A stretch of 64,000 nucleotides of DNA, taken from NCBI GenBank assembly GCA_902799045.1, contig CADBZH010000019.1, positions 1-64,000 on the forward strand, in the 5' to 3' direction. A model generated the notes under the pieces. That model searched no databases. It was given only the letters and a program-made list of their open reading frames with translations, and was not told the origin of the DNA. The stretch is from an uncultured Eubacteriales bacterium (lineage in GTDB: Bacteria; Bacillota; Clostridia; Christensenellales; Aristaeellaceae). Positions 4,088 through 48,303 of this stretch are shown here, piece by piece. Every line of letters starts with the position of its first letter. Position 1 is the first letter of the stretch. The translations under genes and the position numbers were made by a program.

Positions 4088-4091
4088 TTAA

Positions 4092-4488: not shown

Positions 4489-4510
4489 GAAGGGCAAGGA
4501 GGGGTGGTTC

Positions 4511-7932: not shown

Positions 7933-7935
7933 AGA

Positions 7936-8040: not shown

Positions 8041-8064
8041 ATAATCCATACGTGGAGGCAGAAT

Positions 8065-8541
8065 ATGGCGATTCGCAACATCATTGAAATGGGCAAGGAC
8101 GATATCCTGCGCAAGCATTCCCGGAAGGTGACGAAGTTTGACCATCGGCTGGGCGTGCTGCTGGACGACATGGCCGACACCATGTACGAGGCCGACGGCG
8201 TGGGCCTGGCCGCGCCCCAGGTGGGCGTGTTGAAGCGCGTCGTGGTGATCGACGTGGGCGAGGGCCTGATCGAGCTGGTGAACCCGGAGATCCTGTGGAG
8301 CGAGGGTGAGGTCATCAGCACCGAGGGCTGCCTGTCCGTGCCGGGCCGCCGCGGCACCGTGCAGCGGCCGGAAAAGGTGCGCGTCCACGCCCAGGACCGC
8401 AAGGGCAACCCCATCGAGGTGGAGGGCGAGGGCCTGCTGGCCGTGTGCCTGTGCCACGAGCTGGACCACTTGGACGGCGTGCTCTACGTGGACAAGATGA
8501 TCGAGGATGTCACCGACAAGATCGAGGAAGAAAATGAATAA
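8065..8541 (+). CDS. def: Peptide deformylase
   Basis: 158 aa. Removes the formyl group from the N-terminal methionine of new proteins, using Fe2+ or Zn2+. All three motifs are present: [15 protein letters not shown] (metal ligand C89) and HELDH (ligands H131 and H135, catalytic E132). GTGGAGG precedes the ATG. The 3' end overlaps fmt by 8 bases; def-fmt coupling is the usual arrangement, since one enzyme removes the group the other adds. Confidence 0.97.
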
Positions 8542-9484: not shown

Positions 9485-9603
9485 TTTATTCCCGCACCGA
9501 TTCTGCGGCGCCTTTTCCGGCATCTGTCTCTTGCAAATTTCTCGATTTACCTCCAGTAAACCTTCGAATCGCAGCCTCGATGCTCGAATTAATCATCGTC
9601 TAC
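9474..9603 (-). repeat. MITE-like element, copy 2 (17-bp TIRs, CTAG target duplication)
   Basis: 130 bp, inverted relative to the copy at 3978-4087. The ends are GTAGCCGCTGATTTATT and, read on the other strand, GTAGACGATGATTAATT, the same two ends as copy 1. CTAG flanks both sides (9470-9473 and 9604-9607). It shares the TTTAC...GTAAA core. The left end is inside fmt and supplies its stop codon. Confidence 0.87.
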
Positions 9604-9740
9604 CTAGGCAGTAGGGAGCAGGAATCGTGAATCAGGATAAAGGGAACCGGAATGGCTGGACACCCCGTAGGGGCGGCGATGCGCCGCCCGCCCAAAGGCC
9701 TTCCCATACAGGGGAAGACGGTCGGGCGGATCGGGGTCGG

Positions 9741-11144: not shown

Positions 11145-11185
11145 CCCGGGGAGGGAAAGCGACCTCCCGCCGAAAGGATACCTGC

Positions 11186-12244: not shown

Positions 12245-12529
12245 GGAGTTAGAGTGTGTTTCTAAAATCCCTGAAGCGCATTTTCGGCGTCTAAGGTGCA
12301 TCGTCCCAATCCTTCGGATTGCAACGATGCAGTCAGCGCAAGCGCTGGTTTCGGTGGAAATCCTTCGGGTTTCTTTGGTTTTTTGGGGAGACCGGATTGC
12401 CACGTCGCTTCGCTCCTCGCAATGACGTGGTTCGAAGGGGTCAGATTCGATCCTGCAGGAATGAAGCATCGACAGAGAGCTGCGACGCCCTTCATTCAAA
12501 CAAATCCCGCAGGGATTTGCTCCTCACTC
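12239..12529 (+). repeat. GAGTGAGG-bounded intergenic element, long copy upstream of prpC
   Basis: The left end GAGTGAGGAGT (12239-12249) pairs with GCTCCTCACTC (12519-12529). Inside are a fragment of another repeat (12252-12289), a hairpin CAATCCTTCGGATTG, a REP-like ATTGCCACGTCGCTTCGCTC palindrome half and AAATCCCGCAGGGATTT. About 180 bases (12350-12529) are a close reverse-complement match to 15156-15350. This accounts for the 356-base gap between rlmN and prpC; no gene is seen in it. Confidence 0.8.
12252..12289 (+). repeat. Isolated terminal fragment of the 22011-22146 element
   Basis: GAGTGTGTTTCTAAAATCCC followed by a GAAGCGCATTTTCGGC stretch matches the reverse complement of the right end of the element at 22011-22146 almost base for base. 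No partner end is present, so it is a remnant embedded in the larger repeat. Confidence 0.75.
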
Positions 12530-12600
12530 CACACTCCCGCCTCCCCGCCCCCAACGAACACACCCCCCATCTACGCACTACGCCATTGGAGGTCACGCCC

Positions 12601-13322
<722 letters not shown>

Positions 13323-13326
<4 letters not shown>

Positions 13327-15161
13327 TCGGACACGTCATATCGGGCCGATATGTCGTGCAGGCCGTCGTCGGAACCGGCGGTATGGCGGTCGTCTATCGC
13401 GCCTTTGATAAAAAGAAAAACCGAATCGTCGCCATCAAGGTGCTGCGCCCGGAGTATGAGTCGGACGAGGAGTTCGTGCGCCGTTTCAGCCGCGAGGCCG
13501 AGGCCGCCAGCAAGGTGAGCCACGAGAACATCGTGAACATGCTGGACGTGGGCATCGACGGCGACATGCGCTATATCGTGATGGAGTATGTGGACGGGCA
13601 GACGCTGAAGGAGATGATCCGCCAGCGCGGCACCATCCACCCGGACACCGCCATCCGCATGGCCATCCGCATCCTGGCGGCGGTGGACCACGCCCACAGA
13701 AACGGCATCGTCCACCGGGACATCAAGCCCCAGAACATCATGGTGGACAACGAGGGCCGGGTGAAGGTGGCCGACTTTGGCATCGCCCGCCTGAAGGCCG
13801 CGCAGGCCACCACCACGGAGGAGGGCAGCAACGGCTCCGTGCTGGGCAGCGTGCACTATTTCTCCCCCGAGCAGGCCAAGGGCGAGGTGGCCGACGAGAA
13901 GAGCGACCTGTATTCCGTGGGCGTGGTGATGTATGAGATGCTCACGGGCCGGGTGCCCTTCGACGGCGAGACCAGCGTGAGCGTGGCGCTGAAGCACGTC
14001 AGCGAGGAGCCGAAGAGCATGCGCGACCACCAGGAGGGCATCTCCAAGGCCCTGGACGAGGTGGTCATGCGCGCGCTGTGCAAGGACGCCACGAAGCGCT
14101 ATCAGACCGCCGCCGAGATGGCCGCCGACCTGCGCAAGACCATCTCCCACCCCCAGGGCGGGTTCGTCACCTATCCGAAGGACCCGGAGGAGATCGAGCG
14201 CGAGAAGGAGGAGCGCCGCCGCCGCCGCGCCCGCGACCGCAAGCGCCTGCGCCAGACGCTGGTGGCCGTGATCAGCGTGGCCATCGTGCTGATGATCGCC
14301 GCGGGCATCTGGTATTTCACCAACACCTCGAACACCTACGTCATGCCCGACCTGGTCGGCCAGGAACAGCTGCTGGCCCAGGGCGCTCTGGAGCAGCTGG
14401 GCGGAGCGTGCGAATTTGAATACGGCTACAGCGAGGACTATGAAGAGGGCATCGTCGTCGCCCAGTCGCGCCGGGGCGGCGCGCGGGTGAAGCTCTCCGT
14501 GCCCGTGACGCTGACCGTCTCGCTGGGCAGCCAGTGGTATTACCTGCTGGATTACACCGGCCAGACGCTTCAGGAGGCCGAGGAGGCGCTGGGGGCGCTG
14601 GGCGTGGAGAGCATGGAAGTGCTCTACGTGGAGTCGGACGCCCCGGTGGGCACCGTGGTGGCGATCTCCCCGGAGGTGGACACCACCCAGGCCAAGGACA
14701 CGCCGGTGATCTTCACCGTCAGCGGCCAGCGCATCCTGATGCCGGACCTGACCGGCCTTTCGCTGGAGCAGGCCCAGGGGCTCCTGGAGGCCGAGGGGCT
14801 GGCGCTGGGCGCCGTGGGCGAAGCCGACGCGGCGGACGCGCAGCCCGGCGCCGTGGTGGAGCAGAGCGTGGCGGTCGGCACGGAGCTGATGGCCGGCGCC
14901 ACGGTGGATGTCACGCTGAACCGGGCGCAGGAGACGCTGTACTATCCGGCGTCGAAGCTCTCGGTGGTGGTGCCGCTGAACGGCAGCAATGTGAAGCTGA
15001 CGATGACCGCGCCCTCCGGCCAGGTGCAGGAGGTCTACCACGGCATACTCAACGCGGGCACCTATCGCATCGCCCTCGCCAGCGGCGAAGCCGGCGAGCA
15101 CGTCGTGCGGATCGAAATGGACGGCGTGGAGATGGAGACGGAGACGATACTGTTTGAGTGA
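13323..15161 (+). CDS. prkC: PASTA-domain serine/threonine protein kinase (PrkC/PknB type)
   Basis: 612 aa membrane kinase that senses muropeptides or lipid II and controls growth and dormancy. The kinase domain (about 10-270) has the glycine loop GTGGMAVVY, catalytic lysine K39 in AIKVL, HRDIKPQN, DFGIARLK and SPEQAKGE. A basic juxtamembrane stretch (RRRRARDRKRLRQT) precedes a single membrane helix at about 311-331. Three PASTA repeats follow outside (starting near MPDLVGQEQ, YYLLDYTGQ and MPDLTGLSL), then about 70 residues of beta-rich tail. The stop TGA (15159-15161) is part of the GAGTGAGGAGT end of a repeat. Confidence 0.96.
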
Positions 15162-30406: not shown

Positions 30407-32014
30407 TCAGCCGTCCTGGAAGCAGGAGATGTCCTCGCCTTCCTCCCACTCGGCGGGGCCGGGTTTGCCGCCGGCGCACACGGGGCAGGGCTTCTTGCCG
30501 TCCTCCACGGCCTTGGAGATATCCCAGTGCACGGCGGAGTACATGCCGGAGCAATGTTCCTCCAGGTGGTAATAGGTGCCGCCCTTCGTGGCCCAGACGG
30601 TGATCTCCGGGTCGCCGGGCTGCCAGCTTCCCGCGGCCTCCCTCGTGGCGAGGGCCTGGGCCTCCTCCTCGGCGGCGGCGGTGTCCAGGATGGGCGTGAG
30701 GTCGGCAATGACAACCTCGTCCGTAAATTCCCGCTTCGCCTCGTCCCAGTGCTTCGCCACCAGCTGCAGCGATTGGATGTCGCCCAGCGGGACGTAGCCG
30801 TCGTAGGTGTAATCCCAGCAGAAGGCGCGGGTGTCGTTCCGCATGGATTCGGTGCCGCCCCACAGGGCGCTGTACAGCTCCCTGCCGTTCACGTAGAAGA
30901 GCAGCTCGGGAAAGCGGCTGAAATCCACGTCCTCGTCGCTTGCCGGCATGCCCTCGTCCGGCAGCAGCCAGATCCTGGTCTCGATCTTGAAGTGGGTCAT
31001 GCGGAACTTCTCGATGGTGATGGTCATGCCGTCGTAGCGGAAGGTGTTTTTCTCCAGGCCGTTGTACAGGTCGTGGGACACCATGTCCTTGTTCAGCGGC
31101 AGCGACACGCTCCGCTCGGCCGCCAGGCTGGCGATGCCGGTGTGGTCCAGGCCCTTCGGGGTGATCGCCCTGTCCGAGAAGGCATAGTCCTTCATGTCAA
31201 TGGCATAGCCCTTCTCCTCGGCATCCTCCGCCGACAGGACCTCCAGCACATCGGGGAACATCCACAGGTCCACCATCGGCGCGCCGCACTCGTCCATATC
31301 CCAGTAGTACAGCGTGTCCGAGTCCGGGAAGGCGGTTGTCTTGAAGCGGGCGCTCTTCCAGGGGACCAGCATCTCGGGATGGGCGTAGTCGCCTTCCTCG
31401 TTGTAGAAACCCGGCAGGTATTGAAGCGGCCGGTTGGACTTGAAGAAGGCCGCGCCTACCTCCAGCTTCATGTCCTTCAGCTCCAGCTCCCTGGAATCGG
31501 CGATGATCGGCTTTACGAAGGTGTCCGTGGCGGGGTATTTGCCGCCCAGGGCGATGGTTGAGCAGGTCCAGCCGTCCTCCAGGTAGCCGCCCACCCGGTA
31601 TTCCGCGGGCTTGCCGTTGATGCGGGGCACCAGCAGCCCGACCAGGTAGGTGTTTCCATCCTCCGGCACGGACAGGGTGTAGGAGACGTACAGGTCGTCC
31701 CCCTCCCAGACCGCCTCGTCGATGGTGAAATTGAAGCCTTCCCCGGCGTCGGCCAGGTGCACGTCCTGCACGCGCTCGGCCATGTCCTTTGCGCCCGCGT
31801 CGCTCAGCTCGTCCTTCAACTGGTTGTTCCCGATCACCGCCGCCACGGCCCCGATGGCCAGCAGCGCGATCAGCGCCGCCACCAGGGCCAGCGTCAGCTT
31901 CCTGTAGCGTTTGCTTTGCTTCATATCCCTATCCTCCAGCCCGCGCAGCGTCTGCTCCACGCGGTCGTGGAACCCCTTCGGGGTCTGGGGGAACGGGTCC
32001 TTCCAGCGCTTCAT
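30407..32014 (-). CDS. DUF4179-type membrane anti-sigma factor with C-terminal Cys/His motif
   Basis: 535 aa. A cytoplasmic N-terminus of about 39 residues is followed by one membrane helix (40-62) and a large external region. FNFTIDEAVWEGDDLYVSYTLSV is the hallmark of the DUF4179 domain, which is found in proteins encoded beside ECF sigma factors in Bacillota. The last 60 residues add WATKGGTYYHLEEHCSGMYSA...DGKKPCPVC, placing H483, H487, C488, C510 and C513 in a likely metal-binding or redox pattern outside the membrane. The start codon overlaps the sigma gene's end and AAAGGAGGC precedes it, so the two are co-translated. The expected role is to hold the sigma factor and respond to an external signal; the signal is unknown. 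Confidence 0.8.
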   Translation of the reverse strand: MKRWKDPFPQTPKGFHDRVEQTLRGLEDRDMKQSKRYRKLTLALVAALIALLAIGAVAAVIGNNQLKDELSDAGAKDMAERVQDVHLADAGEGFNFTIDEAVWEGDDLYVSYTLSVPEDGNTYLVGLLVPRINGKPAEYRVGGYLEDGWTCSTIALGGKYPATDTFVKPIIADSRELELKDMKLEVGAAFFKSNRPLQYLPGFYNEEGDYAHPEMLVPWKSARFKTTAFPDSDTLYYWDMDECGAPMVDLWMFPDVLEVLSAEDAEEKGYAIDMKDYAFSDRAITPKGLDHTGIASLAAERSVSLPLNKDMVSHDLYNGLEKNTFRYDGMTITIEKFRMTHFKIETRIWLLPDEGMPASDEDVDFSRFPELLFYVNGRELYSALWGGTESMRNDTRAFCWDYTYDGYVPLGDIQSLQLVAKHWDEAKREFTDEVVIADLTPILDTAAAEEEAQALATREAAGSWQPGDPEITVWATKGGTYYHLEEHCSGMYSAVHWDISKAVEDGKKPCPVCAGGKPGPAEWEEGEDISCFQDG

Positions 32015-32481
32015 GGGCGGGCCTCCTTTCCGTTCAATGCGTCCTTGAGCAGCGCGCGGCCGCGGCTGAGCCGCCACTTCACCGTTCCCTCGGGAACGGC
32101 GAGGATGCGGGCGGTCTCGGCGACGCTGTAGCCCTCGATGTAGTGCAGCTCCAGCGCCGCGCGCAGCTTCTGCGGCAGGCCCATCAGCGCTTCCAATAGC
32201 GGCGCGTCCTCCGGCTCCGGCTGGGGAATGTCCTCCGTGAGCTCGGTGGGCGCGGGCGGGCGGCGGCGGTAGAAGGTCTTGCACTGGTTGATGAGTATGC
32301 GCATCAGCCACGTCTCGAAGTACGCCTCGTTTTTCAGCGTGTCCAGCCTGTCCCATGCCCGCAGCAGCGCCTCCTGGACCGCGTCCTCGCAATCGCACTC
32401 CCGCGGGAGCTGCGTTCGCGCGACGCGGTAGAGCCTGCGTTCACAGGCCCGCACGCGCTGGATGAAGTCGGCTTGCAGCAT
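32011..32481 (-). CDS. ECF-type RNA polymerase sigma factor
   Basis: 156 aa. Region 2 has CDCEDAVQEALLRAWDRLDTLKNEAYFETWLMRILINQC. Region 4 has LPQKLRAALELHYIEGYSVAETARILAVPEGTVKWRLSRGRALL, the helix-turn-helix that reads the -35 element. The length and lack of regions 1 and 3 put it in the ECF group (SigM/SigV-like). The ATG at 32481 has GGAGGG just upstream; a longer frame to 32553 would cross the predicted promoter. The anti-sigma gene overlaps its stop. An ECF-type promoter lies 30-60 bases upstream, suggesting autoregulation. Confidence 0.93.
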   Translation of the reverse strand: MLQADFIQRVRACERRLYRVARTQLPRECDCEDAVQEALLRAWDRLDTLKNEAYFETWLMRILINQCKTFYRRRPPAPTELTEDIPQPEPEDAPLLEALMGLPQKLRAALELHYIEGYSVAETARILAVPEGTVKWRLSRGRALLKDALNGKEARP

Positions 32482-32512
32482 TGTGGTTCCCTCCAAAGTA
32501 CCGGTACACCTG

Positions 32513-32542
32513 TTAGACGCGCGGGGACGGGAAACGGTTGGG
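32513..32542 (-). promoter_or_regulatory. Predicted ECF-type autoregulatory promoter
   Basis: On the minus strand CCCAAC (32542-32537) is followed after 17 bases by CGTCTAA (32519-32513). AAC in the -35 and CGTC in the -10 are the core of SigM/SigV-like ECF promoters. It lies directly upstream of the sigma gene. Confidence 0.65.
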
Positions 32543-32621
32543 CGGTCCGACAATTTTACGCCCCGTCACGTTTCGGCTCCAAATTGTTGGAATAAAGCGC
32601 TATTTGAGGCGCGTGGCGGCG

Positions 32622-32651
32622 TTGACAGGGGGCCCTCTGTAATGTTATCAT
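32622..32651 (+). promoter_or_regulatory. Predicted sigma-A promoter of the 32766-42883 operon
   Basis: TTGACA (32622-32627) and TATCAT (32646-32651) with 18-base spacing. The transcript would have a leader of about 105 bases. The divergent ECF promoter is about 80 bases away. Confidence 0.65.
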
Positions 32652-32765
32652 TAAATACTGAAAAATGAGCATCAATTTGGGGGCTCAGGCCGTCCAATAT
32701 ATCAGTTGAACGGAGAAACGCGCCGCGTTTGTCCTGCCTATATATCGGAAAGGAAGCAATTTGCA

Positions 32766-35012
32766 ATGAAGAAATGGGTTTGCCTGCTGGCGCTTTGCCT
32801 GTGCTTGAACGGGACGCTGGCGCTGGCGAGCGAAGTGGAGCCCGCTGCCCCGGCCGCTGGGGCGGCGCAGACGGAGGCCGTCCAGGAGGCCGCCGAGGCT
32901 GGAGAGCCCCCCGCGGCGGGCGGGGAGAACGCCGGTCCCACCGCGGAGGAGATGCCCGCCGCAGAAGTCGAAAGCGCGGAGCAGGGCGAAGCGCCCGCGA
33001 GCCAGAATCCCGCAAGCGAGAATCCCACGAGCGAAAGCCCTGCCAATGAGAATCCGACCGGCGAGAACCCGGGGAGTGAGAACCCCGCGAGCGAAAGCCC
33101 CGCGAGCGAAAGCCCTGCCAGTGAGAACCCCGCGAGCGAAAGCCCCGCGAGCGAAAGCCCTGCCAGTGAGAACCCCGCGAGCGAAAGCCCCGCGAGCGAG
33201 AGCCCTGCCGGTGAGAATCCGACCGGCGAAAACCCCGCGAGCGAAAGCCCCGCCAGCGGGAACGCGGACGGCGCGGCCACGGAACCCGCCAGCGCCGACG
33301 CGCAAGACGCCGGTGACGCGGGCGAAGCGCCCGCCGGGGCGCCCACCGAGGCCCCCGCGGACGCGGTGCCGGAGGACGCCCAGGCCTGGTTCGAGGCGGA
33401 CGGCGCGAAGGTGGGCGGCACGCTGGAGGCGCTGCTGCCGCAACTGACCGGCAAGGTCACGCTGAACCTGATCGACAAGAACATCGAGGGCGTCGCGCGG
33501 GTGAAGGACCTGCCGCTGAAGGCGCTGAGCGAAGTGACGCTGAAGCTGGACCCCGAGGATGACAGCCGGGTGATCCGCGTGTCCCGGAGCGATCCCGCTG
33601 GCGTGGAGCGCCCGGAGACCATCGCTCTGAAGGACCTTTCGGACTGCGCTGGGGACGAGCGCGGCGATCTCTTCATCTGGATCGAGGACGCCGCACAGCC
33701 CACGCCCCAGCCCACGGCCACGCCGGAACCCGTTCCGGTGCTGAGCGTGTCGGCGGAAAAGCTGTCCGCCGGGGCGTGGAGCAACGAAGCGCCCTCGTTC
33801 ACCCTCTCCGGCATTCCGGAGGGCAAGGCCTACAGCTATGCCGCCGTGATCTATGACGAGCGCATCGTGCCCCTCTCCGGCAACGCCTACGCGCCGGACA
33901 TGGAGGGCAGGTATTCGGTGCGCTTCGCGATGGTGGACGGCATCGGCGACATCGTCTCCGCCTCGGAGACGTATCCGCTCTGGCTGGATTTCACCGCGCC
34001 GAAGGACGTGATGATCGAATATGACGATGCGTCGGACTACACCCTGCACATCACCGCCACGGACGGCCTGAGCGGCGTGACGGGCGTGTCGTTCGACGGC
34101 GGCGCGACCTGGGAGGCGCTCTCGGACGGCGAGGAATTCACCTATACCGCCGCGGGGGAGACGACGCTCTCGCCCGGCACGGTGCAGGTCCGGGACGCGG
34201 CCGGGAATCTCTGGCGCAGCACAAGCGAGATCCGGCTGGAGGCCGTGACGCCGGAGCCCGGCGGCGGCGGTGGCGGGGGCGGCGGCAGCGGCGAAAAGAA
34301 GCCCGTCCAGTCCCACGCCAGCGGCGACGGCGAGGAGGGCGTGGAGTACGAGGCCCTGGAGCTGGAGCTGCCCGCGGAGCCGATGAAGAAGCTGACCGTC
34401 GGCGGCGAGGAGATGGAGCTGACGCTGGTGCTGGAATCGGCCCGGGCCGAGGGCGCACCGGTGGGGGAGGAACAGCCCTTCACCGCCGCGCTGGCCCGCT
34501 GGCAGGTGCCCGCCGACGCGGACGATCCCCACGAGAACGTGCTGGCGGACGCGGCGGAGCCCGCGCCGAACACGCTGGTGCTGACCGCGAAAGCGGACGC
34601 GAACCTGGGCGACGCCTTCGCCTATACCTGGCGCTTCAACGGCGAGGTGTACCGGCTGCTCGCCAACAGCGGCATCCGCTACGTGGCCCTGCGGGTGGGC
34701 GACGACGTGGCCGCCTTCCCCACAGAGGGCTTCACCGGCGGCACGAAGTACACGGAGCTGAAGATGCTGGGCGTGTCCACCCGCAAGTTTGACTACACCC
34801 TGACGATGCGGGTGAACCTGGACCCGGGCTACGTGTCGGCCATGTCCGACTGCGATTTTTCCCGGTCCTGCGATCTGTCCATCCGCGCCGAGGTGGAGAA
34901 CATGGCCTATGAGCTGAGCGCCTCCACCAACAGCCTGATGTATTTCTACGACGTCTACCTGGGGCCGGAGGCGATGCTCGACGCGCCCTTTGGGCAGTAC
35001 AGGGCCGATTGA
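32766..35012 (+). CDS. Secreted protein with Ser/Glu/Pro pentapeptide repeats and Ig-like region
   Basis: 748 aa, function unknown. A signal peptide (MKKWVCLLALCLCLNGTLALA) is followed by an acidic, alanine-rich stretch. About 17 pentapeptide units (S/N/G)-E-(N/S)-P-(A/T/G) lie at residues 79-163, and then a low-complexity linker. A folded region from about 215 contains a proline/threonine hinge (PTPQPTATPEPVP) and an Ig-like domain with DFTAPKDVMIEY...DGLSGVTGVSFDGG, resembling repeats in secreted cell-wall proteins. A run of nine glycines separates the last domain (about 510-748). No LPXTG or membrane anchor is seen. It is the first gene of a seven-gene operon; AAAGGAAGC lies upstream. The extended repeat suggests a spacer through the wall. 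Confidence 0.75.
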   Translation: MKKWVCLLALCLCLNGTLALASEVEPAAPAAGAAQTEAVQEAAEAGEPPAAGGENAGPTAEEMPAAEVESAEQGEAPASQNPASENPTSESPANENPTGENPGSENPASESPASESPASENPASESPASESPASENPASESPASESPAGENPTGENPASESPASGNADGAATEPASADAQDAGDAGEAPAGAPTEAPADAVPEDAQAWFEADGAKVGGTLEALLPQLTGKVTLNLIDKNIEGVARVKDLPLKALSEVTLKLDPEDDSRVIRVSRSDPAGVERPETIALKDLSDCAGDERGDLFIWIEDAAQPTPQPTATPEPVPVLSVSAEKLSAGAWSNEAPSFTLSGIPEGKAYSYAAVIYDERIVPLSGNAYAPDMEGRYSVRFAMVDGIGDIVSASETYPLWLDFTAPKDVMIEYDDASDYTLHITATDGLSGVTGVSFDGGATWEALSDGEEFTYTAAGETTLSPGTVQVRDAAGNLWRSTSEIRLEAVTPEPGGGGGGGGGSGEKKPVQSHASGDGEEGVEYEALELELPAEPMKKLTVGGEEMELTLVLESARAEGAPVGEEQPFTAALARWQVPADADDPHENVLADAAEPAPNTLVLTAKADANLGDAFAYTWRFNGEVYRLLANSGIRYVALRVGDDVAAFPTEGFTGGTKYTELKMLGVSTRKFDYTLTMRVNLDPGYVSAMSDCDFSRSCDLSIRAEVENMAYELSASTNSLMYFYDVYLGPEAMLDAPFGQYRAD
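33000..33254 (+). repeat. In-frame 15-bp tandem repeats with 45-bp higher-order period
   Basis: About 17 units of 15 bp encode (S/N/G)E(N/S)P(A/T/G). In the middle the units SENPA, SESPA, SESPA recur three times as a near-identical 45-bp block, so the array is likely to vary in copy number by slippage or recombination. The frame is kept at any copy number. Confidence 0.9.
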
Positions 35013-35055
35013 CGGCATGGGACTGGCTGACACAGACACGGAGGGAGGTTGAATC

Positions 35056-36189
35056 ATGAGTATGAACAAGCGCATCGCAATCGCGCTGGCAGCGCTTCTG
35101 ACCCTGGCGATGGGCATGCCGGCGCTGGCGCAGGTGACCTTCCAGGGCAACGTCATCTCCCGCGAGACCAAGGCGGTGATCGCGCCGTTCGGCGGCCTGG
35201 TGGACGAGCTGCCGCTGCGCAAAGGCGACGTGATCCACGTGGGCGACGCCGTCGCCACGATCCGCACCACCAAGGTCTACGCCGAGATGGACGGCGTCGT
35301 CAGCGGGATATTTGCCCGCGAGGGCGACCAGACCGAGGGCATCACCGAGCGCTACGGCGGCGTGATGTACCTGGAGCCGGTGAACAAGTACGTGGTCTCG
35401 GCCACCACCGAGAAGGCCTACAACAGCAGCGCCACCAAGTACGTGCACATCGGCGAGCGCGTGTACCTGTCCTGCACCAAGGACGGCACCCACGTGGGCA
35501 CCGCCGTGGTGACGAAGATCGACGCCGTGGACGACAACGGCAACACCCCCTACACCCTGGAGGTGACCGGCGGCGAGTTTTACATGGGCGAGACCGTGGG
35601 CATCTATCGCGACAGCGGCCACGCCTCCGAGAGCCGCATCGGCCGGGGCACGATCCAACAGAACGCCGCCGTGCCGGTGAAGGGCACGGGCAGCGTGCTG
35701 AAGGTGCACGTGCAGGTGGGCGACCGCGTGGAGCGCGGCGAGGTGCTGTTTGAGACGGTGGAGGGCGTGCTGGACGGGCTGTTCGCCGTGGACAACACCA
35801 TCTATTCCCCGCTGGACGGCTTCGTGGCCACCGTGGACGCGGCCCAGGGCAGCGCCGTGGAAAAGGGCGGCAAGCTGATCACCGTGTTCCCGACGGACGC
35901 CATGCAGATCGAGATGAAGGTCTCGGAGCTGGACCTGGCGGAGATCCACGAGGGCGACAAGGTGTCCATCGAATTCGAGTGGGACGCGGACGGCACGCTG
36001 CAGCTGGAGGGCGTGGTTTCCGGCATATCCAGCGTCGGCGACGACAAAGCCGAGGGCAGCACCTCCACCGACGCCCAGTACAGCGCCTACGTGGACTTCA
36101 CCCCCGTGGACTCCGTTCGGCTGGACATGTCCGTGATCGTGTACGTGCAGGATGAGGCCGACGCAGCCGACGCGGACGACGGCGAATAA
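35056..36189 (+). CDS. HlyD/biotin-lipoyl-like secreted adaptor protein
   Basis: 377 aa. The signal peptide ends MPALA-Q. Two barrel-sandwich (lipoyl-like) segments are visible: IAPFGGLVDELPLRKGDVIHVGDAVATI near residue 40 and IYSPLDGFVATVDAAQGSAVEKGGKLITVF near 250, followed by a beta-barrel piece with MQIEMKVSELDLAEIHEGDKVSIEF. That layout is the membrane-fusion (HlyD/RND adaptor) fold, but the long coiled-coil hairpin is missing and there is no N-terminal anchor after cleavage. GGAGG lies 8-12 bases before the ATG. It probably works with the second adaptor (40366) and the MacB-like protein (41717) of the same operon. Confidence 0.75.
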   Translation: MSMNKRIAIALAALLTLAMGMPALAQVTFQGNVISRETKAVIAPFGGLVDELPLRKGDVIHVGDAVATIRTTKVYAEMDGVVSGIFAREGDQTEGITERYGGVMYLEPVNKYVVSATTEKAYNSSATKYVHIGERVYLSCTKDGTHVGTAVVTKIDAVDDNGNTPYTLEVTGGEFYMGETVGIYRDSGHASESRIGRGTIQQNAAVPVKGTGSVLKVHVQVGDRVERGEVLFETVEGVLDGLFAVDNTIYSPLDGFVATVDAAQGSAVEKGGKLITVFPTDAMQIEMKVSELDLAEIHEGDKVSIEFEWDADGTLQLEGVVSGISSVGDDKAEGSTSTDAQYSAYVDFTPVDSVRLDMSVIVYVQDEADAADADDGE

Positions 36190-36219
36190 AGCAAAACAAT
36201 CAGACAGGAGTACAGGATC

Positions 36220-38484
36220 ATGAAAAAGCTATGCCTGCTGCTGGCCCTCGCGCTGGCGCTTTCGACGATGCCCGCCTTCGCGGCCCAGGGCGATATGCTG
36301 CTGGGGCGCGGGGAAGAGGGCTCCATGTTTTTCAACTACGCCTTCCCGATGGGGGACGAACTCTGTCTGGTGCCCGGCGGGCCCGTCCTCTACACCTACC
36401 ACCTGGGGGATCTGGAATTTGCGGAGCACGCCATTGTCCTGCCCCAGCGGGAAAGCGGCGCCTCCGAGGAGATCTTCCCCTTCCCGGCGAACGACGCGAT
36501 CTACGGCATCGGCCTGGCGATGAACTACGGCGAGCAGAGCGAGTTTGAGGGCGCGACGCTCTACCGGCTGAACGAGGACGGCGAGGGGAACTTCGCCGCC
36601 GAGGCCCTGTCGGAGCTGGACTGGAGCGAGCTGATCGAGTATTACGACCAGGACAGCTACGCCAAGCGCCCGGAGGGCATCGTCGGCGTGGCCGGCAGGG
36701 CCATGTTCCGCGCCTATGACGAGAGCGGCACCTACAACCTCTACACGCTGGACGTGGACAGCGGCCGGCTCGAGCGCGTCGACGCGCTGCGCGACGCCTA
36801 CAACCTGACGCCCTACCGGGATGACACGCTGCTGGTGCAGTGCTATTCCTACGACCAGCCCGGCACGAGCCGCCTGCTGGCGTTCGACCCCGAGAGCGAA
36901 AGCGTCGAGCCGGTGGCCGAGCTGGCCATCGACGACTACAGCCCGCTGGACGCCCTCGGCTATGACTTTGACACCGATACGCTCTACTGCGCCAAGGCCG
37001 GGGAGATCCGCCCGGTGGATCTGCAGAGCGGCGAGCTGGGCGAGGGCGTGACGGACATGCCCCTGGAGACCTACAACGGCGGCACGGCCTACGTGCTGAA
37101 CGGCTGCTATGTGTATTGCGCCGAGGGCATGGTCGTGCGCAACCTGGACCCGGAGCAGATGGCCCAGACGCGGCTGAAGATCAACGATTCCAGCTGGAAC
37201 GACACCATCACCAACGCCTATTACCGCTTCTCCAACGCCCACGGCGACGTGAGCGTGGTGCTCTCTCACGATTGGGCCGAGTCGCAGAATCTGCTGGAGA
37301 AGATGATGAACCATGACGACAGCGTGGACATCTACGTGCTGTCCAGCAACAGCAACATCTTCGACGCGCTGTACCGGCGCGGCTACCTGATGGAGCTGGA
37401 CGGCAGCGAAAAGCTGGCGGCGCTGTGCGAGGGCATGTATCCGGACCTGCGCGAGGCCATCTCCGCCAACGGCCACATGGTGGCCCTGCCGCTGTCGTTC
37501 TACAGCTGGTCGCTGGGCGTGAACGAGGCGCCGCTGGAGGCCCTGGGCTATGCCATGGCGGACGTGCCGGACAACTGGATGGACCTGCTGGACTTCATCG
37601 CCGGCCTTCGCCAGCCGCTGGAGGAGAACCCGGGCATCCACCTGTTCTACGCGGGCTACACCGCGCGGGAGGCCCGAAACGACCTGTTCAACTGCCTGTT
37701 TGAGGATTACGAGCGCTATGTGAACGCCGTCGAGCCGAACCTGGGCTACAACACGCCGCTGCTGCACGATCTGATCACGAAGCTGGAGCAGATCGATTTC
37801 GTGGCCCTGGGCTGCGCCGAGGACAACGGCGACGAGGAGGGCGAAGCGGGCGAACGGGTGGAATACGTGGACTACAGCGAGGAGACCGTGCTGTTCTCCA
37901 GCGGCGTCGGCTGCGCCTTCGGCAGCTTCTATTCCAGCTATACCCCGCTGCTGCTGGGCCTGGACGCGAATACGCCCATGCCGCTGGTGCTGCGGGCCGA
38001 CCTGGCCTTCATCAATCCCTACACGAAGAACCCCGATGTGGCCCTGGCCTTCATGGAGGAGGCGGCGGACAACCTGAACCTGGCCGCCCGCTACTCGATG
38101 GATCCCACGCTGAACGAGCCGGTGCGCGGCGCGAACAACGAGCAGAACGTGGCCGAGGCCCGGCAGTGGGTGGACGATGCCCAGCGGCAGCTGGACGAGG
38201 CCGACGAGGCCGACAGGCAGATGCTGGAGGAGAGCCTGCGCTCCGCCCAGGAAAACCTGGAATACTGGGAGAACTACGGCTGGGACGTGTCCCAGCGGGA
38301 GATCGACTGGGTCCGCGCCCACGATGACAGCCTGACGCTGGAGCGCGTGAACTGGCTCTATGCCGATGACAGCGGCGACGCCTGGGACCTCATCAACCAA
38401 TACCTCGACGGCGCCATCGGCGTGGACGAAATGCTCGCCGGCATCGACCGCAAGGCGCAGATGATGATGCTGGAGGGGAATTAG
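36220..38484 (+). CDS. Secreted fusion of a propeller-like domain and an ABC solute-binding domain
   Basis: 754 aa. The signal peptide MKKLCLLLALALALSTMPAFA has no lipobox cysteine at the cleavage site, unusual for a Gram-positive binding protein. Residues about 25-320 form repeated beta-rich blocks that end in short GRLERVD or SGELGEG-type turns, like a beta-propeller of the PQQ/DUF5050 style. From about 325 the protein resembles an extracellular sugar-type solute-binding protein: VVLSHDWAESQNLLEKMMNHDDSVDIYVL, PLSFYSWSLGVNEAPLEALGY, PDNWMDLLDFIAG and FINPYTKNPDVALAFMEEAADN. It lies just upstream of two matching permeases. The substrate is unknown. The segment 640-690 is helical and charged. 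Confidence 0.8.
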   Translation: MKKLCLLLALALALSTMPAFAAQGDMLLGRGEEGSMFFNYAFPMGDELCLVPGGPVLYTYHLGDLEFAEHAIVLPQRESGASEEIFPFPANDAIYGIGLAMNYGEQSEFEGATLYRLNEDGEGNFAAEALSELDWSELIEYYDQDSYAKRPEGIVGVAGRAMFRAYDESGTYNLYTLDVDSGRLERVDALRDAYNLTPYRDDTLLVQCYSYDQPGTSRLLAFDPESESVEPVAELAIDDYSPLDALGYDFDTDTLYCAKAGEIRPVDLQSGELGEGVTDMPLETYNGGTAYVLNGCYVYCAEGMVVRNLDPEQMAQTRLKINDSSWNDTITNAYYRFSNAHGDVSVVLSHDWAESQNLLEKMMNHDDSVDIYVLSSNSNIFDALYRRGYLMELDGSEKLAALCEGMYPDLREAISANGHMVALPLSFYSWSLGVNEAPLEALGYAMADVPDNWMDLLDFIAGLRQPLEENPGIHLFYAGYTAREARNDLFNCLFEDYERYVNAVEPNLGYNTPLLHDLITKLEQIDFVALGCAEDNGDEEGEAGERVEYVDYSEETVLFSSGVGCAFGSFYSSYTPLLLGLDANTPMPLVLRADLAFINPYTKNPDVALAFMEEAADNLNLAARYSMDPTLNEPVRGANNEQNVAEARQWVDDAQRQLDEADEADRQMLEESLRSAQENLEYWENYGWDVSQREIDWVRAHDDSLTLERVNWLYADDSGDAWDLINQYLDGAIGVDEMLAGIDRKAQMMMLEGN

Positions 38485-38609
38485 GGAGCAGGGACACCGA
38501 TCAACGCCTCCCCTCCGCGCTGGAAGCATCAGCCCGAAGGGCCGGGGGGCATGCCGTCCCGGCTGCCTGCGCCCTCGATCATCTGATATCCGATTTATCG
38601 GAGGAAACC

Positions 38610-39464
38610 GTGTTTACCAAGAAGAAATCCGTATGGCTGTTCCTGCTGCCGGGGGCGCTGGGGCTGATGCTGTTTTACATCGTCCCGTTCTTCGGCGGCA
38701 TCTGGTACAGCCTGACCGACGGCAGCTACAAGAACGCCTTCGTGGGCTTGGACAATTACGTCAACATCTGGAAAAACCCGATGTATCTGCTGGGCCTGAA
38801 GAACACGATGCTGCTCTCGCTGATCTGCGCGCCGCTGGTGTGGCTGCTCAGCTTCGGCATCGCCTCGCTGCTGAACCGGCTGCGGCCGGGCGGGGCGTTC
38901 TTTCGCAACAGCGTGCTGCTGCCCTATCTGATGCCGTCCTCGGCCATGCTGCTGATCTGGCTGGTGGCGTTCGACTACGGCGGCGTCATAAACCGCCTGT
39001 GGACGGCGCTGGGCCTGGGCCGCGTGATGTGGCTGCAGGGCGCCGAGCTGCGCGTGCCGATCATACTGATGTTCGTCTGGAAGAACCTGGGCTTTGCCGT
39101 CATCATCTTCATGGCGGCGCTGCAGGCCATTCCCGAGCCGCTTTATGACTTTGCCAGGCTCGAGGGCGCAGGCTTTTTGCGCCAGACCTTCGGCATCACG
39201 CTGCCGATGATCGTGCCGACGGCGTTCCTCGTCATCATACTGGAGTGGATCAACGCCTTCAAGATCTTCAAGGAGGTCTACTTCATCGGCGGGGCCTATC
39301 CGGACGAGAGCGTCTACACGCTGCAAAACTATATGAACAACATGTACGGCAAGCTGAACTATCAGAACGTGACGACGGCGGCCTACAGTTTCGCGCTGAT
39401 CGTCTTTGCCCTGTTCGGCGCGCTGTTTTTGACGCAGCGGCAGCTGCTGAAGAGGTTGAGCTGA
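38610..39464 (+). CDS. Sugar-type ABC transporter permease (MalF/UgpA-like)
   Basis: 284 aa with six predicted membrane helices. It begins MFTKKKSVWLFLLPGALGLMLFYIVPFF, the usual MalF/UgpA-type opening. The EAA loop that contacts the ATPase is degenerate but present (DFARLEGAGFLRQTFGITLP). GTG at 38610 is chosen because CGGAGGAAACC lies just before it and no ATG fits. The stop overlaps the ATG of the second permease (TGATG). It is separated from the binding-protein gene by 125 bases containing only a weak hairpin (CCGATTTATCGG). No nucleotide-binding subunit is encoded in the window. Confidence 0.9.
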   Translation: MFTKKKSVWLFLLPGALGLMLFYIVPFFGGIWYSLTDGSYKNAFVGLDNYVNIWKNPMYLLGLKNTMLLSLICAPLVWLLSFGIASLLNRLRPGGAFFRNSVLLPYLMPSSAMLLIWLVAFDYGGVINRLWTALGLGRVMWLQGAELRVPIILMFVWKNLGFAVIIFMAALQAIPEPLYDFARLEGAGFLRQTFGITLPMIVPTAFLVIILEWINAFKIFKEVYFIGGAYPDESVYTLQNYMNNMYGKLNYQNVTTAAYSFALIVFALFGALFLTQRQLLKRLS

Positions 39465-40345
39465 TGAAGGGCAAGCCGAAGAATGCCGTATACCGCCCCG
39501 GCCGCTCGAAGCTGGCGACCCGGGGGCTGCTGATGGCGCTGGCGCTGGTGATGCTGGTGCCGGTGGCGGTGACGTTCCTCTATTCCTTCTTCTCGCCGGA
39601 CGAGATCAAGGCCTTCATGGAGACCCGCGGCAGCTATGACGCGGAGAAGTGGATGGACGTGAAACTGTCGCCGCAGATGTTTTCGCTGACGCAGTACTAT
39701 GAGATCCTGATCCGGGACACCTCGATCCTGCGCATGTTCGTCAATTCCGCGTTCTACACGGTGATGATCCTGCTGGGCCAGGCGGCGGTGATCCCGATGA
39801 TGGCCTACGGCCTGAGCCGGTTCCGCTTCAGGGGCCGGGACGCGCTGTTCTTTGCCATCATCATGCTGATGCTGCTGCCCTTCCAGGTGACGATGGTGCC
39901 GAACGTGCTGACACTGCGGGCCATTGGGCTGCTGAACACGGTGTGGGCGGTGATCATGCCGATGTGGTTCGCGCCGTTTTACATCTTCCTGATCCGCCAG
40001 TACATGCTGGGCCTGCCCAACGAGCTGCTGGAGGCGGCGCAGGTGGACGGCGCGGGAACCATCCGCTGCTACGGCCACATCGTGCTGCCGGTCTGCCGGC
40101 CGATCATCGGCGCGGCGGTGGCGCTGAGCTTCGCGGACTGCTGGAACCTGGTGGAGCAGCCGATGACCTACCTCAGCCAGCGCATGGAGCTGCAGCCGCT
40201 GTCGGTGATGTTCAACCAACTGGCCAGCGCCTCCACCGGCATCGAGTTTGCCGGCGCGGCCATCTACATGCTGCCGGCGCTGTTCATCTACCTGTACTTC
40301 CTGAAGGACATCCTGGCGGGCGTGCAGCTGACGGAGCTGAAATAG
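39464..40345 (+). CDS. Sugar-type ABC transporter permease (MalG/UgpE-like)
   Basis: 293 aa, six membrane helices. A large extracytoplasmic segment lies between TM1 and TM2 (FFSPDEIKAFMETRGSYDAEKWMDVKLSPQMFSLTQYYEILI). The EAA motif is textbook: NELLEAAQVDGAGTIRCYGHIVLPVCRP. It therefore should dock an MsmX/UgpC-type ATPase, but none is encoded here, so a shared ATPase elsewhere is expected (inference). ATG 39464 overlaps the end of the first permease. The next gene, an adaptor, starts 21 bases downstream, which ties the importer-like and adaptor-like halves of the operon together. Confidence 0.92.
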   Translation: MKGKPKNAVYRPGRSKLATRGLLMALALVMLVPVAVTFLYSFFSPDEIKAFMETRGSYDAEKWMDVKLSPQMFSLTQYYEILIRDTSILRMFVNSAFYTVMILLGQAAVIPMMAYGLSRFRFRGRDALFFAIIMLMLLPFQVTMVPNVLTLRAIGLLNTVWAVIMPMWFAPFYIFLIRQYMLGLPNELLEAAQVDGAGTIRCYGHIVLPVCRPIIGAAVALSFADCWNLVEQPMTYLSQRMELQPLSVMFNQLASASTGIEFAGAAIYMLPALFIYLYFLKDILAGVQLTELK

Positions 40346-40365
40346 TATCGACAAGAGGTTTTTGC

Positions 40366-41703
40366 ATGAATCTGAAGAAGTTTGCCGTTCGGGGCATCAT
40401 CATCCTGGCGATCTGCGTGGCGCTGTGCATGTTTTTCTCCGGCACGGTGCGCACCATCACCACCCCCAAGGTGCGCCTCACCTCCGCCAAGCGCGGCAAG
40501 CTGGAGGAGCGCGTGGAGCTGGCCTGCAAGCCGGCGTTTCCGCTGGTGGAGGAAGTGGGCGTTGCCATGCCGGATGACATGACGCTGACCATCACCCGCG
40601 TGAACACCCGCGAGGGCTACACCGTGAAGGCGGGCGACGTGGTGGTCGAGGGCAGGATTTCCAACTATGAGCAGCAGCGCAAGGCCGCCCAGGAGGCCTA
40701 CGACAACGCCTCCGAGGCGCTGATGACGCTGGAGAACAAGAACCGCGGCATCCGCATTTCCAAGCGGGACCAGGCCTACGCCGACGCCTTCTTCGCGCTG
40801 CGCGACGCCCGCCGATCCGCCGTGGCGCTGGAGCTGAACATGGAGGCGGAGTTGGGCCGCGAGGGCCTGGAGCGCGTGGACGAGGGCTATCCCGAGGGCG
40901 CGAGCGACGCCCTGAAGGAGCTGATCGACGCCTGGCGCGAGGCCGCGGAGGCGCAGCGAAAGGCCCAGGAGGCCATGGATGCCGCCGGGCGCTACACCGT
41001 GCCGGACGACGTGTGGAGCTACATCACCGAGCAGCGGGAGCAGCAGGAGAAGAAGGCCGAGGCCGAGGCGCAGCTGCGCCAGCTGGTGACCCTGAACGAC
41101 CAGGTGAAGGCCATCACCGCGCCCCACGACGGCTATGTGGCGCAGATCAACGTGAAGGAGAGCGAGGTGTGGGACGGCACCCACGCCCTTCTGACGATCA
41201 CGCAGGAGGGGGAGATGCCCGTGCTGCGGGCCGATACCAGCGAGCTGACCCGCACGATCTCCGAGGGCATGACCGCCGCGATGAACCCCGACAGCTACGA
41301 CGCCATCGAGACGAAGGTGGTCGCTGTCGGCACCGACAGCGACGGCAGGAAGTACGCCGACATCGAGCTGAACGACCGGCTGATCAAGGCCCGCGGCAGC
41401 CTCTTTTCCATGATGCAGGAGGACACGCCGATGACGCTGATCTTCCGCGCCCGGGAGGCCACCGGCCTAATCCCCACCAGCGCGGTGCGGGGCAGCGGCG
41501 ACGAGCGCTACATATTCGTCACCGAGCAGAACACCGCCGCCTTCGGCGGCAGCACGCTGAAGATCCACCGCATGGACGTGACCGTGGTGGGGGAATACGG
41601 CGGCACCACCTCCGTGAAGGAGGACGTGAGCTACTACACGATCGCCTATGGCGAGGACCGCGCCATCAGCGACGGCGACGCCGTGATGGAATACCTGAAC
41701 TGA
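40366..41703 (+). CDS. Membrane-anchored HlyD-like adaptor with coiled coil
   Basis: 445 aa. A single N-terminal anchor (about 8-25) is followed by a beta segment with the first lipoyl half (TREGYTVKAGDVVVEGRIS) and a long charged coiled-coil hairpin at about 100-245. The second lipoyl half, ITAPHDGYVAQINVKESEVWDGTHALLTI, is followed by a C-terminal barrel (TGLIPTSAVRGSGDERYIFVTEQNT). This is the layout of HlyD/MacA-type membrane fusion proteins. In single-membrane bacteria such proteins partner MacB-like ABC exporters; the next gene encodes a MacB-like core. The start ATG 40366 has AAGAGG upstream. Confidence 0.85.
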   Translation: MNLKKFAVRGIIILAICVALCMFFSGTVRTITTPKVRLTSAKRGKLEERVELACKPAFPLVEEVGVAMPDDMTLTITRVNTREGYTVKAGDVVVEGRISNYEQQRKAAQEAYDNASEALMTLENKNRGIRISKRDQAYADAFFALRDARRSAVALELNMEAELGREGLERVDEGYPEGASDALKELIDAWREAAEAQRKAQEAMDAAGRYTVPDDVWSYITEQREQQEKKAEAEAQLRQLVTLNDQVKAITAPHDGYVAQINVKESEVWDGTHALLTITQEGEMPVLRADTSELTRTISEGMTAAMNPDSYDAIETKVVAVGTDSDGRKYADIELNDRLIKARGSLFSMMQEDTPMTLIFRAREATGLIPTSAVRGSGDERYIFVTEQNTAAFGGSTLKIHRMDVTVVGEYGGTTSVKEDVSYYTIAYGEDRAISDGDAVMEYLN

Positions 41704-41716
41704 TCGGGAGGCGCGC

Positions 41717-42883
41717 ATGACGAAGCAAACCAAGCGCAGGCTGCCCTGGGTGCTGATGATCCTGGGCGCGGCGATGGCGCTGTGGGGGCTGGGCATGCTG
41801 CTCGGCACCGGGAGCGCCCTGCAATACTGCGTCGCGGCCCCCGACCCCGGCGAAAAGGGCGAAAACTATGCCAAACTGAACCGCGCCGCGCTGAGCATCG
41901 GCACGGCGCTGAAGGACGCGCTGGCCTGGACGGCAGCGGGCGGCACGGCGGCGGAGGTGAACGTCTCCGCCGGCAGCGCCACCGAGACCGCGGTGCTCAC
42001 GGCCATGGGCGAGGGCTGGCTGGAGGTGTATCCCCGGGCCCTCGTGCAGGGCCGCCGCATCGGCGAGAGCGAGCTGCAATCCGGCGTTCGCGTGGCTATG
42101 CTGGACGAGGGGCTGGCCTTCAAGTGCTTCGGCGAGACGCTGCCGGAGGGCGCGACGGTGAAGCTGGGCGACGTCGATTTCCAGGTGGTGGGCACCGTGC
42201 GCCACGCCTCGAACCGCTGGGGAGGGCGCGGCGTGGGCGACATGCAGCGCTATGACGTGTACGTGCCGCTGCTGGCGACCACCGGCGCGGAGATCGCGCT
42301 GGACACGCTCACCCTTTCGGCGCGGCCCCAGGGCGACGGGGCGGGCGCGTCGCAGCTGTTTCAGGAGGCCGCCGAGGGCGAATGGCAGGGCGGCGGCACG
42401 TTCATCAACCTGAAAAAGGAGGCCATGCGTCGCACGATCCTGCCGCGCATCGTGCTGTTGGTCGCAGGGCTGTATGCCCTCGTCGGCCTGTTCAAGCGGA
42501 TGACGCTGCTGGCCGAGGGCTGGGCCGCGAACTTCCGCGCGCGCCTGAAGCAGAGCTACTTGAAGCCGCTGCTGCCCCGGCTGCTGGGCATGATTGCGCT
42601 GATCCTTGCGGGCTATGCCGCGCTGATCGGCCTGACCTGGCTTTTGATGGTGTTCTCGGCACAGCCGCTGTACGTGTTTACCGAGTGGGTGCCGGAGAAC
42701 ATCGTGGAATGGTCGTCGATCGCAAAGGTGTTCTGGAGCCTGACCTCGGACGCCGCGCGGCTGCTGCGCGTCGCCACCCGCGAGCTGCGCGAGATCGAGT
42801 TCTGGGGCGGCCTCGTGCGCTGGGGCACGGTGCTTACCCTGCTGGGCGCGGCGCTGCTGCCGAAGCGGACGGGCGGGGCATGA
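41717..42883 (+). CDS. MacB-like periplasmic-core membrane protein (ABC exporter permease-like)
   Basis: 388 aa. TM1 (about 9-30) is followed by an extracytoplasmic domain with the MacB_PCD pattern: YPRALVQGRRIGESELQSGVRVAMLDEGLAFKCFGE then GATVKLGDVDFQVVGTVRH. Three more hydrophobic segments follow (about 240-262, 293-315 and 355-383). Standard FtsX/MacB permeases have four helices in a similar order, but here the C-terminal FtsX domain is short and not clearly recognisable. The cytosolic ATPase normally encoded beside MacB is absent. It is the last gene of the operon, with a strong terminator 10 bases after the stop. Its pairing with the upstream adaptor suggests export or cell-envelope mechanotransmission. 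Confidence 0.7.
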   Translation: MTKQTKRRLPWVLMILGAAMALWGLGMLLGTGSALQYCVAAPDPGEKGENYAKLNRAALSIGTALKDALAWTAAGGTAAEVNVSAGSATETAVLTAMGEGWLEVYPRALVQGRRIGESELQSGVRVAMLDEGLAFKCFGETLPEGATVKLGDVDFQVVGTVRHASNRWGGRGVGDMQRYDVYVPLLATTGAEIALDTLTLSARPQGDGAGASQLFQEAAEGEWQGGGTFINLKKEAMRRTILPRIVLLVAGLYALVGLFKRMTLLAEGWAANFRARLKQSYLKPLLPRLLGMIALILAGYAALIGLTWLLMVFSAQPLYVFTEWVPENIVEWSSIAKVFWSLTSDAARLLRVATRELREIEFWGGLVRWGTVLTLLGAALLPKRTGGA

Positions 42884-42893
42884 TACTCGGATG

Positions 42894-42949
42894 AAAAGAG
42901 GCTGTCTCAAATGGACCCCTTCAGGTCGTTTTGAGACAGCCTCTTTTTT
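42894..42949 (+). terminator. Strong terminator of the 32766-42883 operon
   Basis: AAAAGAGGCTGTCTCAAA (42894-42911) pairs with TTTTGAGACAGCCTCTTTT, followed by more Ts. The loop itself holds a small ACCCCTTCAGGT hairpin. Confidence 0.92.
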
Positions 42950-48138: not shown

Positions 48139-48257
48139 TGGCTATTAAAGGCTCTGTGCCATAGACAGCGAGCACGCAAGTTCAATGACCGGAAGGTCGC
48201 TCGCCGAGGCGCAAAGGTAGGAATCACACCGCCCTTGCGTCTTGCGCAAGGGTTTTT
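48139..48257 (+). ncRNA. Ribosomal protein L10 leader with attenuator
   Basis: The leader before rplJ has the ACCGGAAGGT hairpin and a conserved GTAGGAATCACACCGC segment, then an intrinsic terminator CCCTTGCG-TCTTG-CGCAAGGG (48232-48252) with five Ts. This matches the known L10 leader of Bacillota, in which L10(L12)4 binds the RNA and favours termination to limit its own synthesis. The assignment rests on position and the terminator; I cannot run a covariance search. Confidence 0.8.
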
Positions 48258-48303
48258 AATTTGCCGTCTGAATATCTTTGGACGGAATGCGAGGTGTATG
48301 AAA

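Follow-up and report, generated by a model that had tools for sequence, protein, structure and literature searches.

ATP-binding cassette (ABC) importers and MacB-type machines have been treated as separate architectures. YknWXYZ is reportedly a MacB-type ABC system of monoderm bacteria with an HlyD-like adaptor and a protein carrying a MacB-type outer domain. According to the available text of its description, the monoderm MacB-type system Spr0693-0695 also pairs an HlyD-like adaptor with a four-helix protein that has a MacB-type outer domain, and the helix that follows TM2 (the second transmembrane helix) of Spr0695 couples to the ATPase (PMC5768738). On the importer side, MsmX of Bacillus subtilis serves several importers that have no ATPase gene of their own; as far as the available text describes them, these CUT1 importers comprise a binding protein and two MalF/MalG-like permeases encoded in an ATPase-free operon, with the orphan UgpC-type ATPase encoded elsewhere (PMC7658222). 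Here, we describe an operon of seven genes, A to G, in a 64,000-nucleotide stretch of DNA from an uncultured Eubacteriales bacterium (contig CADBZH010000019.1, positions 1 to 64,000; "the window," 65% G+C), in which importer permeases and a binding protein are encoded together with HlyD- and MacB-like proteins. The importer features listed above recur in this operon, which differs in that F and G are fixed parts of it and A and B are added; HlyD and MacB go unmentioned in the available text on the MsmX-energized importers (PMC7658222). Compared with Spr0693-0695 and YknWXYZ, it lacks a MacB-type ATPase, an FtsX match, and the coupling motif in G and has importer permeases and a binding protein instead. 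We found no description of such a unit in the literature searched, which largely left out subscription papers, in agreement with the initial annotation of this DNA, which had called the system a candidate undescribed one. Judging from sequence comparisons and structure models, the unit probably encodes one envelope machine, a predicted complex whose base is a type I ABC importer of the CUT1 (oligosaccharide) class, with MacB/HlyD-derived subunits.

Operon layout and conservation of gene order

The seven genes are co-directed on the + strand and are bounded by one promoter and one terminator, as follows.

32622-32651, + strand: promoter, TTGACA-18-TATCAT with TG before the -10 element (11 of 12 consensus matches; conserved in relatives)
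32766-35012, + strand: A, secreted protein with a signal peptide, low-complexity repeats, an immunoglobulin (Ig)-like part, and a conserved C-terminal part
35056-36189, + strand: B, secreted HlyD-like adaptor with a signal peptide (HlyD_3, 7e-22)
36220-38484, + strand: C, all-beta (propeller-like) domain followed by a maltose-type solute-binding protein (AlphaFold, maltose-binding-protein-type matches)
38610-39464, + strand: D, MalF/UgpA-like permease (BPD_transp_1, 3.6e-13)
39464-40345, + strand: E, MalG/UgpE-like permease with an EAA motif and the marker WNx(V/L)EQ (BPD_transp_1)
40366-41703, + strand: F, membrane-anchored HlyD-like adaptor (TIGR00999 at 2.3e-10 and HlyD_3, both below cut-off; profile of relatives)
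41717-42883, + strand: G, MacB-type outer core domain with an altered membrane part and no FtsX coupling motif (MacB_PCD, 2.1e-13; AlphaFold; Foldseek)
42894-42949, + strand: terminator stem-loop with a T run (read from the sequence; an automated scan did not have it in its list)

The promoter of A is kept in five relatives (L085, L086, L089, L090, and L091), and gene spacing together with the promoter and terminator signals predicts a single transcript for A to G. Domain scans and reading of the sequence bore out the gene set, gene order, and domains given in the initial annotation; the EAA motif claimed for the MalG-like permease is present in E, and, as had been claimed, a Pfam/NCBI profile scan of the A-G unit detected no ABC ATPase gene.

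To examine conservation, we collected a first set of 40 stretches of ≤20 kb from genomes of the same bacterial family, picked from matches to C (loci are designated by L numbers). D was present in 29 of the 40, and 25 of these also held A and B; the remainder held C without D. In one locus (L047), C was located after G. A scan with a B profile of one genome per species gave 94 relatives. We retained the 80 best, which correspond to 76 loci; these relatives were clostridial bacteria, many of them from animal guts. The complete A-G order was found in 43 of the 76 loci. Ten more held D, nine of them cut by a contig or stretch end and one (L127) with C after G, and a further nine were cut so that only A, B, or C was visible (L138, one of these, has A and B and is compatible with both the unit and the second system discussed below). 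The other 14 represented a different cluster, designated system II. The unit is patchy within the window's genus, and C was not found in four genus genomes among those listed.

Co-occurrence of importer and adaptor genes was assessed in 150 genomes of the family, using an E profile up to 1e-70 and an F profile up to 1e-50. E gave 79 matches in 73 genomes and F gave 77 matches in 73 genomes; 70 genomes had both, 3 had only E, 3 had only F, and 74 had neither (Fisher p of 7e-35, kinship ignored). E was followed by F on the same strand for 71 of the 79 E matches, with gaps of mostly 3 to 46 bases. Of the eight E matches without an adjacent F match, six had an F that was divergent or cut (L209, L210, L211, L212, L213, and L215), and in L216 the contig stops at E, with F and G found at the end of another contig (L217); the eighth (L208) is considered below. 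Five F matches lacked an adjacent E, and we retrieved four of these places. L218 ends in a partial E, L217 and L219 are truncated at F, and L214 has F-G without D or E. A case in which the importer genes and the adaptor/MacB genes stand apart with separate ATPases was thus looked for, and the eight E exceptions either are explained or have an F that could not be called, whereas L214 goes the other way. Since the order is complete in 43 of the B loci and E is directly followed by F in nearly all cases, the juxtaposition of A to G is not due to chance, and the claim that importer and HlyD/MacB-like genes share one unit is upheld by the conserved order.

The D-E-F-G core is also present in other families and classes. 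The F profile gave 17 positive genomes among 297 of the order at 1e-20, all from the window's family, and weak matches (1e-11 to 4e-15) outside the family in 11 genomes among 391 of the class. Eight of those places were fetched (L161 to L168), and all eight carried a unit-type E and an F; D was present in seven (L161 begins at E), and a relative of G next to F was detected with the profile in seven, while in L167 Pfam gave a MacB_PCD match below cut-off. Among 398 genomes of the phylum, the distribution of E profile scores was sharply bimodal: nine matches in eight genomes scored 358 to 445 bits, and the next scored 217 bits, below which lay a continuum of ordinary MalG proteins. The high-scoring genomes were from other classes (G1043, G1093, G1230 with two matches, G1033, and G1201) and from the window's class (its own genome, G682, and G548); the high score of G682 was expected, because the E profile included a row from that genome. 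In total, we considered 21 outside loci that do not have the seven-gene form (L161 to L168, L199 to L205, and L208 to L213). A binding-protein gene was found beside 12 of them by Pfam and beside three more by weak profile matches.

Importer-type subunits and MacB/HlyD-like subunits

Two BPD_transp_1 permeases with EAA loops and a binding protein, as in a type I CUT1 importer, were found in the unit. D and E are its most conserved genes, D being 58 to 91% identical to 29 relatives. The EAA pattern was present in all 30 E sequences; in D it is modified, and the strict pattern was present in none of 30. In a tree with 15 ordinary MalG rows, the 24 rows of unit-type E formed one clade (support 96/96), and the motif WNx(V/L)EQ occurred in all 24 of these rows and in none of the 15. 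The AlphaFold model of C (predicted local distance difference test score [pLDDT], 88.4) is all-beta to approximately residue 310, followed by a binding-protein fold that includes a helical hairpin around residues 638 to 686; the Pfam SBP_bac_8 match of C is below cut-off, and both fold and sequence matches were to maltose-type binding proteins. The initial annotation had proposed a fusion of a propeller with a solute-binding protein. The binding-protein part and an all-beta N-terminal part were seen, and the strand pattern of the model fits a propeller (as does a weak PQQ_2 match in L203, below cut-off), but no propeller was among the 50 fold matches shown. Of the two secreted proteins, A gave only weak matches for its repeats and Ig-like part, and B is 41 to 88% identical to 15 relatives. 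First-set loci carry one to five copies of C in tandem. Five tandem C-type binding-protein genes stand upstream of D-E-F-G in L057 (5221-18785), which suggests several ligands for one pore. Orphan C genes had no common neighbor in the nine loci inspected; one stood with a sigma/anti-sigma pair.

F carries an N-terminal stretch, FFSxTI...TxPKV, that is common to most rows. The AlphaFold model of G (pLDDT, 90.5; predicted template modeling score, 0.84; 42 sequences) consists of a helix (residues 9 to 29), an outer domain (35 to 231), and a long helix (241 to 277), followed by a helix (282 to 320), a short helix (332 to 346), and a further helix (355 to 379). Foldseek matched G best to MacB, YknZ, the Streptococcus pneumoniae transporter 5xu1, and LolE. 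The fit is good for the outer domain (target template modeling [TM] scores of 0.69 to 0.70; 0.69 for YknZ), whereas full-length G superposes poorly on MacB (TM scores of 0.36 to 0.44; root mean square deviation of ~15 to 18). MacB_PCD was over the Pfam cut-off in the window's G and in those of L161, L162, L163, L166, and L199, and no FtsX domain match was found in the seven G proteins scanned. The FtsX coupling motif, which was at the corresponding place in all 12 MacB proteins of system II used as a control, was found in none of 42 family, 8 outgroup, or 8 class-level G sequences (three rows are in both outside sets). Family G aligned with outgroup G over 253 columns (99.2%, 1.7e-19) that span the outer domain and some of the membrane region, and with the system II MacB over 283 columns (97.9%, 5e-13). 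The pattern PE..., followed by FW, in the tail of G was tried as a general marker and rejected, since it occurred in 37 of the 42 family rows, in 4 of the 8 outgroup rows, and in none of the 8 class-level rows.

System II comprises 14 loci from the same bacterial family, 12 of them with the ATPase in view, and has genes for a B-like protein, an A-like protein, an HlyD, an ATPase, a MacB, and a second B-like protein. It resembles the window unit in having the A and B families; it differs in its HlyD, its 230- to 262-amino-acid ATPase, its MacB with FtsX (Pfam detected FtsX in L134, where the cluster spans 1449-11104), and the lack of D and E. A and B are present in both and therefore serve two machines.

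ATPase supply

ATPase presence was scored by profile across loci. No ATPase was detected in the 29 first-set loci with D, nor in the unit or within 900 bases of it in the 53 B loci with D; farther out, L129 has one 950 bases on, on the opposite strand, and L128 and L129 have one 2.5 to 2.9 kb on. L161 to L167 had none, and L168 had one ~4 kb upstream. A UgpC/MalK-type ATPase of 360 to 433 amino acids directly follows G in all six loci from other classes (L199, L200, L201, L202, L203, and L205). The NCBI UgpC cut-off was passed by the ATPases of L199, L202, L203, and L205 and by an orphan ATPase of the window genome; those of L200 and L201 were outside that scan. Because these six loci encode such an ATPase, the absence of an ATPase gene, which the initial annotation took as a feature of the system, is a feature of the window's lineage, where it holds true, and, for the same reason, the unit is most likely powered by a single ATPase of the importer type. 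No MacB-type ATPase of its own, as a MacB exporter would have, was found beside G. L204, from the window's class, has no ATPase after G, and a 301-amino-acid ABC ATPase and a 731-amino-acid open reading frame (10521-13587) are directly upstream of D, the sole such case seen.

The window genome has 76 ABC_tran matches, three of them over the UgpC cut-off. Our search for an MsmX/UgpC-type ATPase found the orphan at 252810-253928 of contig C2, alone among unrelated genes. It is 55 to 60% identical to the six operonic ATPases (≤53.5% for eight other ATPases of the same genome that were tested) and branches among them in a tree (support 86/93 and 87/88). It is a plausible candidate partner of D/E. 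An orthologue (≥70% identity) is present in 127 of the 150 family genomes. Another ATPase, at C19:70389, was rejected as a partner, since by its look it sits in a methionine-type cluster. In L079 (6588-8932), an orphan UgpC-type ATPase stands beside genes that by look resemble a cdaA/ybbR pair.

These results bear on the idea that two machines share one operon: a plain MsmX-dependent sugar importer (C, D, and E) and, unrelated to it, a remnant of an HlyD/MacB system (A, B, F, and G), linked only by co-regulation. A and B can work without D and E, since in 12 loci they also accompany a true MacB exporter and its ATPase, and in L214 F-G lacks D/E on a short contig. However, D-E-F-G stays together across several families and classes, the single ATPase gene, where there is any, is of the importer type, the ordinary MalG rows tested lack the marker of E, and G lacks the ATPase-coupling motif. 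We consider such a pair of independent machines improbable.

Sensor neighbors and predicted function

The initial annotation had also assigned to the system the following two genes, which are divergent from A.

32011-32481, - strand: extracytoplasmic function (ECF) sigma factor (Pfam Sigma70_r2/r4_2 and TIGR02937, over cut-off)
30407-32014, - strand: DUF4179-type anti-sigma candidate, 536 amino acids (Pfam DUF4179, 5.5e-05, below cut-off)

This assignment was not supported: among the 76 B loci, the pair was found in 5, which are all from close relatives, and one further instance stood next to an orphan C (L061). We rejected it as a part of the core.

Of the 21 outside loci, 9 have envelope-stress sensors encoded within ~3.5 kb of D-E-F-G. 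VanR/VanS is near the module in L199, L200, and L202, with a D-Ala-D-Ala carboxypeptidase gene near VanRS in L199 and L202. In L200 (3324-17865), a VanI-type D-Ala-D-Lac ligase cluster lies directly upstream of D-E-F-G, the ATPase gene, and a binding-protein gene, all in one direction; the order is VanX, three genes that by look resemble murF, vanK, and vanW, VanI (749 bits; cut-off, 700), VanR, VanS, and then D. The van gene order is that reported for the vanI glycopeptide resistance cluster, with our module directly downstream of vanS and in the same direction; the available text of that report covers the van genes and does not mention transport, a permease, an ABC transporter, or HlyD (PMC4229326). 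The VanI match and the gene order make L200 appear Desulfitobacterium-like. In L213 (5576-8485), a single 969-amino-acid open reading frame, located after a BlaI gene and before D-E-F-G, combines a BlaR1-type M56 peptidase (HEEEH), a propeller-like stretch, and a solute-binding protein. Kinase/regulator pairs are present in L163, L201, L208, and L210 (the regulator of L201 was named by look), and L209 has an ECF sigma factor with a DUF4367 protein. In Bacillus licheniformis, a peptidoglycan fragment acts on BlaI, according to the available text of the report (PMC3305447). The sensor genes nearby, and the BlaR1 fusion in particular, point to a ligand related to the wall or to a role in reporting, and the unit is perhaps tied to cell wall sensing.

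The window genome had no Omp85 and no OEP/TolC-type match in a profile search (controls positive in 7 of 14), so an outer membrane is unlikely, and F and B therefore cannot join a known outer membrane channel; a TolC-dependent tripartite pump was ruled out on the same ground. In the arrangement that we infer, which extends to the physical complex, the direction of import, the ligand, and the use of the orphan ATPase, C would capture a ligand and pass it to the D/E pore, and a dimer of a UgpC/MsmX-type ATPase, whose gene adjoins G in distant relatives but is located apart from the unit in the window genome, would dock on the EAA helices of D and E. F and G would derive from an HlyD/MacB pair that no longer binds an ATPase of its own and would act as accessory membrane subunits, probably extending the transporter outward through the wall as a collar or conduit, jointly with the secreted proteins A and B in the window's family. 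The ligand may be a glycan derived from the cell wall, or the complex may report wall damage. We offer only tentatively the broader proposal that the unit represents a new class of ABC machine in one-membrane cells, in which an importer-type ATPase drives a MalFG core with a captured MacB/HlyD trans-wall extension, drawing in wall-derived glycans whose flow is read by cell wall stress sensors.

The sensor neighbors could also fit a transporter that serves mainly as a sensor, in which F/G or C would signal the binding of a wall-derived ligand by C and the cycling of D/E to a regulator nearby, and net uptake would be small. The BlaR1 protease fused to a binding protein in front of D-E-F-G in L213 is in its favor, as are VanRS, the other kinase pairs, and the ECF sigma factors near the module. 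However, no regulator family is common to most seven-gene loci, and transport is likely because the EAA motif has been retained and other classes carry an ATPase gene; we regard this alternative as somewhat unlikely. For CUT1 permeases that work with a binding protein, import is the established direction in the family. This fact and the binding proteins beside most of the outside loci count against reversed use of the machine, in which a MalFG-like core would export or flip an envelope glycan or lipid with F/G as the exit path, even though the relatives of HlyD and MacB are export parts and the vanI-type cluster stands just upstream of the module in L200. Reversed use seems to us very improbable.

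Several observations weigh against a single wall-directed machine with an importer core. As to its integrity, A and B are absent or unrecognized in 4 of the 29 first-set loci with D, which have C-D-E-F-G (L056, L057, L058, and L071); L208 has G but no callable F; and L214 (2-3988), on a 4-kb contig, carries F-G and an oppositely oriented C but neither D nor E, the sole result against a strict unit. As to its ATPase, the orphan orthologue tracks D-G weakly, being a shared gene because it is found in 66 of 73 genomes with E and in 61 of 77 without E, and 7 E-positive genomes (70 to 89% completeness) show no orthologue. As to its role, no sensor was noticed in the other 12 of the 21 outside loci (not all flanks were scanned by profile, and several are cut), VanR/VanS of L202 is 3.4 kb off, and the flanks of the seven-gene form are not conserved, with no regulator family shared by most loci. 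No binding-protein gene was noticed beside the module in L162 and L166, and in L162 (13517-16141) a GH9 cellulase with CBM3 is encoded two genes past D-E-F-G, which would fit a plant glycan.

If the single-machine reading is correct, an importer with an ATPase and a MacB relative without one would show that these parts can be combined, and HlyD-like proteins of monoderms would have a new role. It would also place a transporter of an undescribed kind in the vicinity of VanRS, vanI, and BlaR1/BlaI, for which the connection of wall fragments to regulation is of interest.

Clustering of the flanks over 58 loci revealed no functional partner beyond local synteny, save a secreted protein upstream of A in seven. 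In L160 (4956-6002), the gene just upstream of A encodes a secreted phosphodiester glycosidase (NAGPA); the same family occurs in 7 of the 58 loci, one of which was scanned. Elsewhere in the window, positions 48141-48267 matched the ribosomal protein L10 leader (RF00557) at 44.7 bits, with a gathering score of 44.

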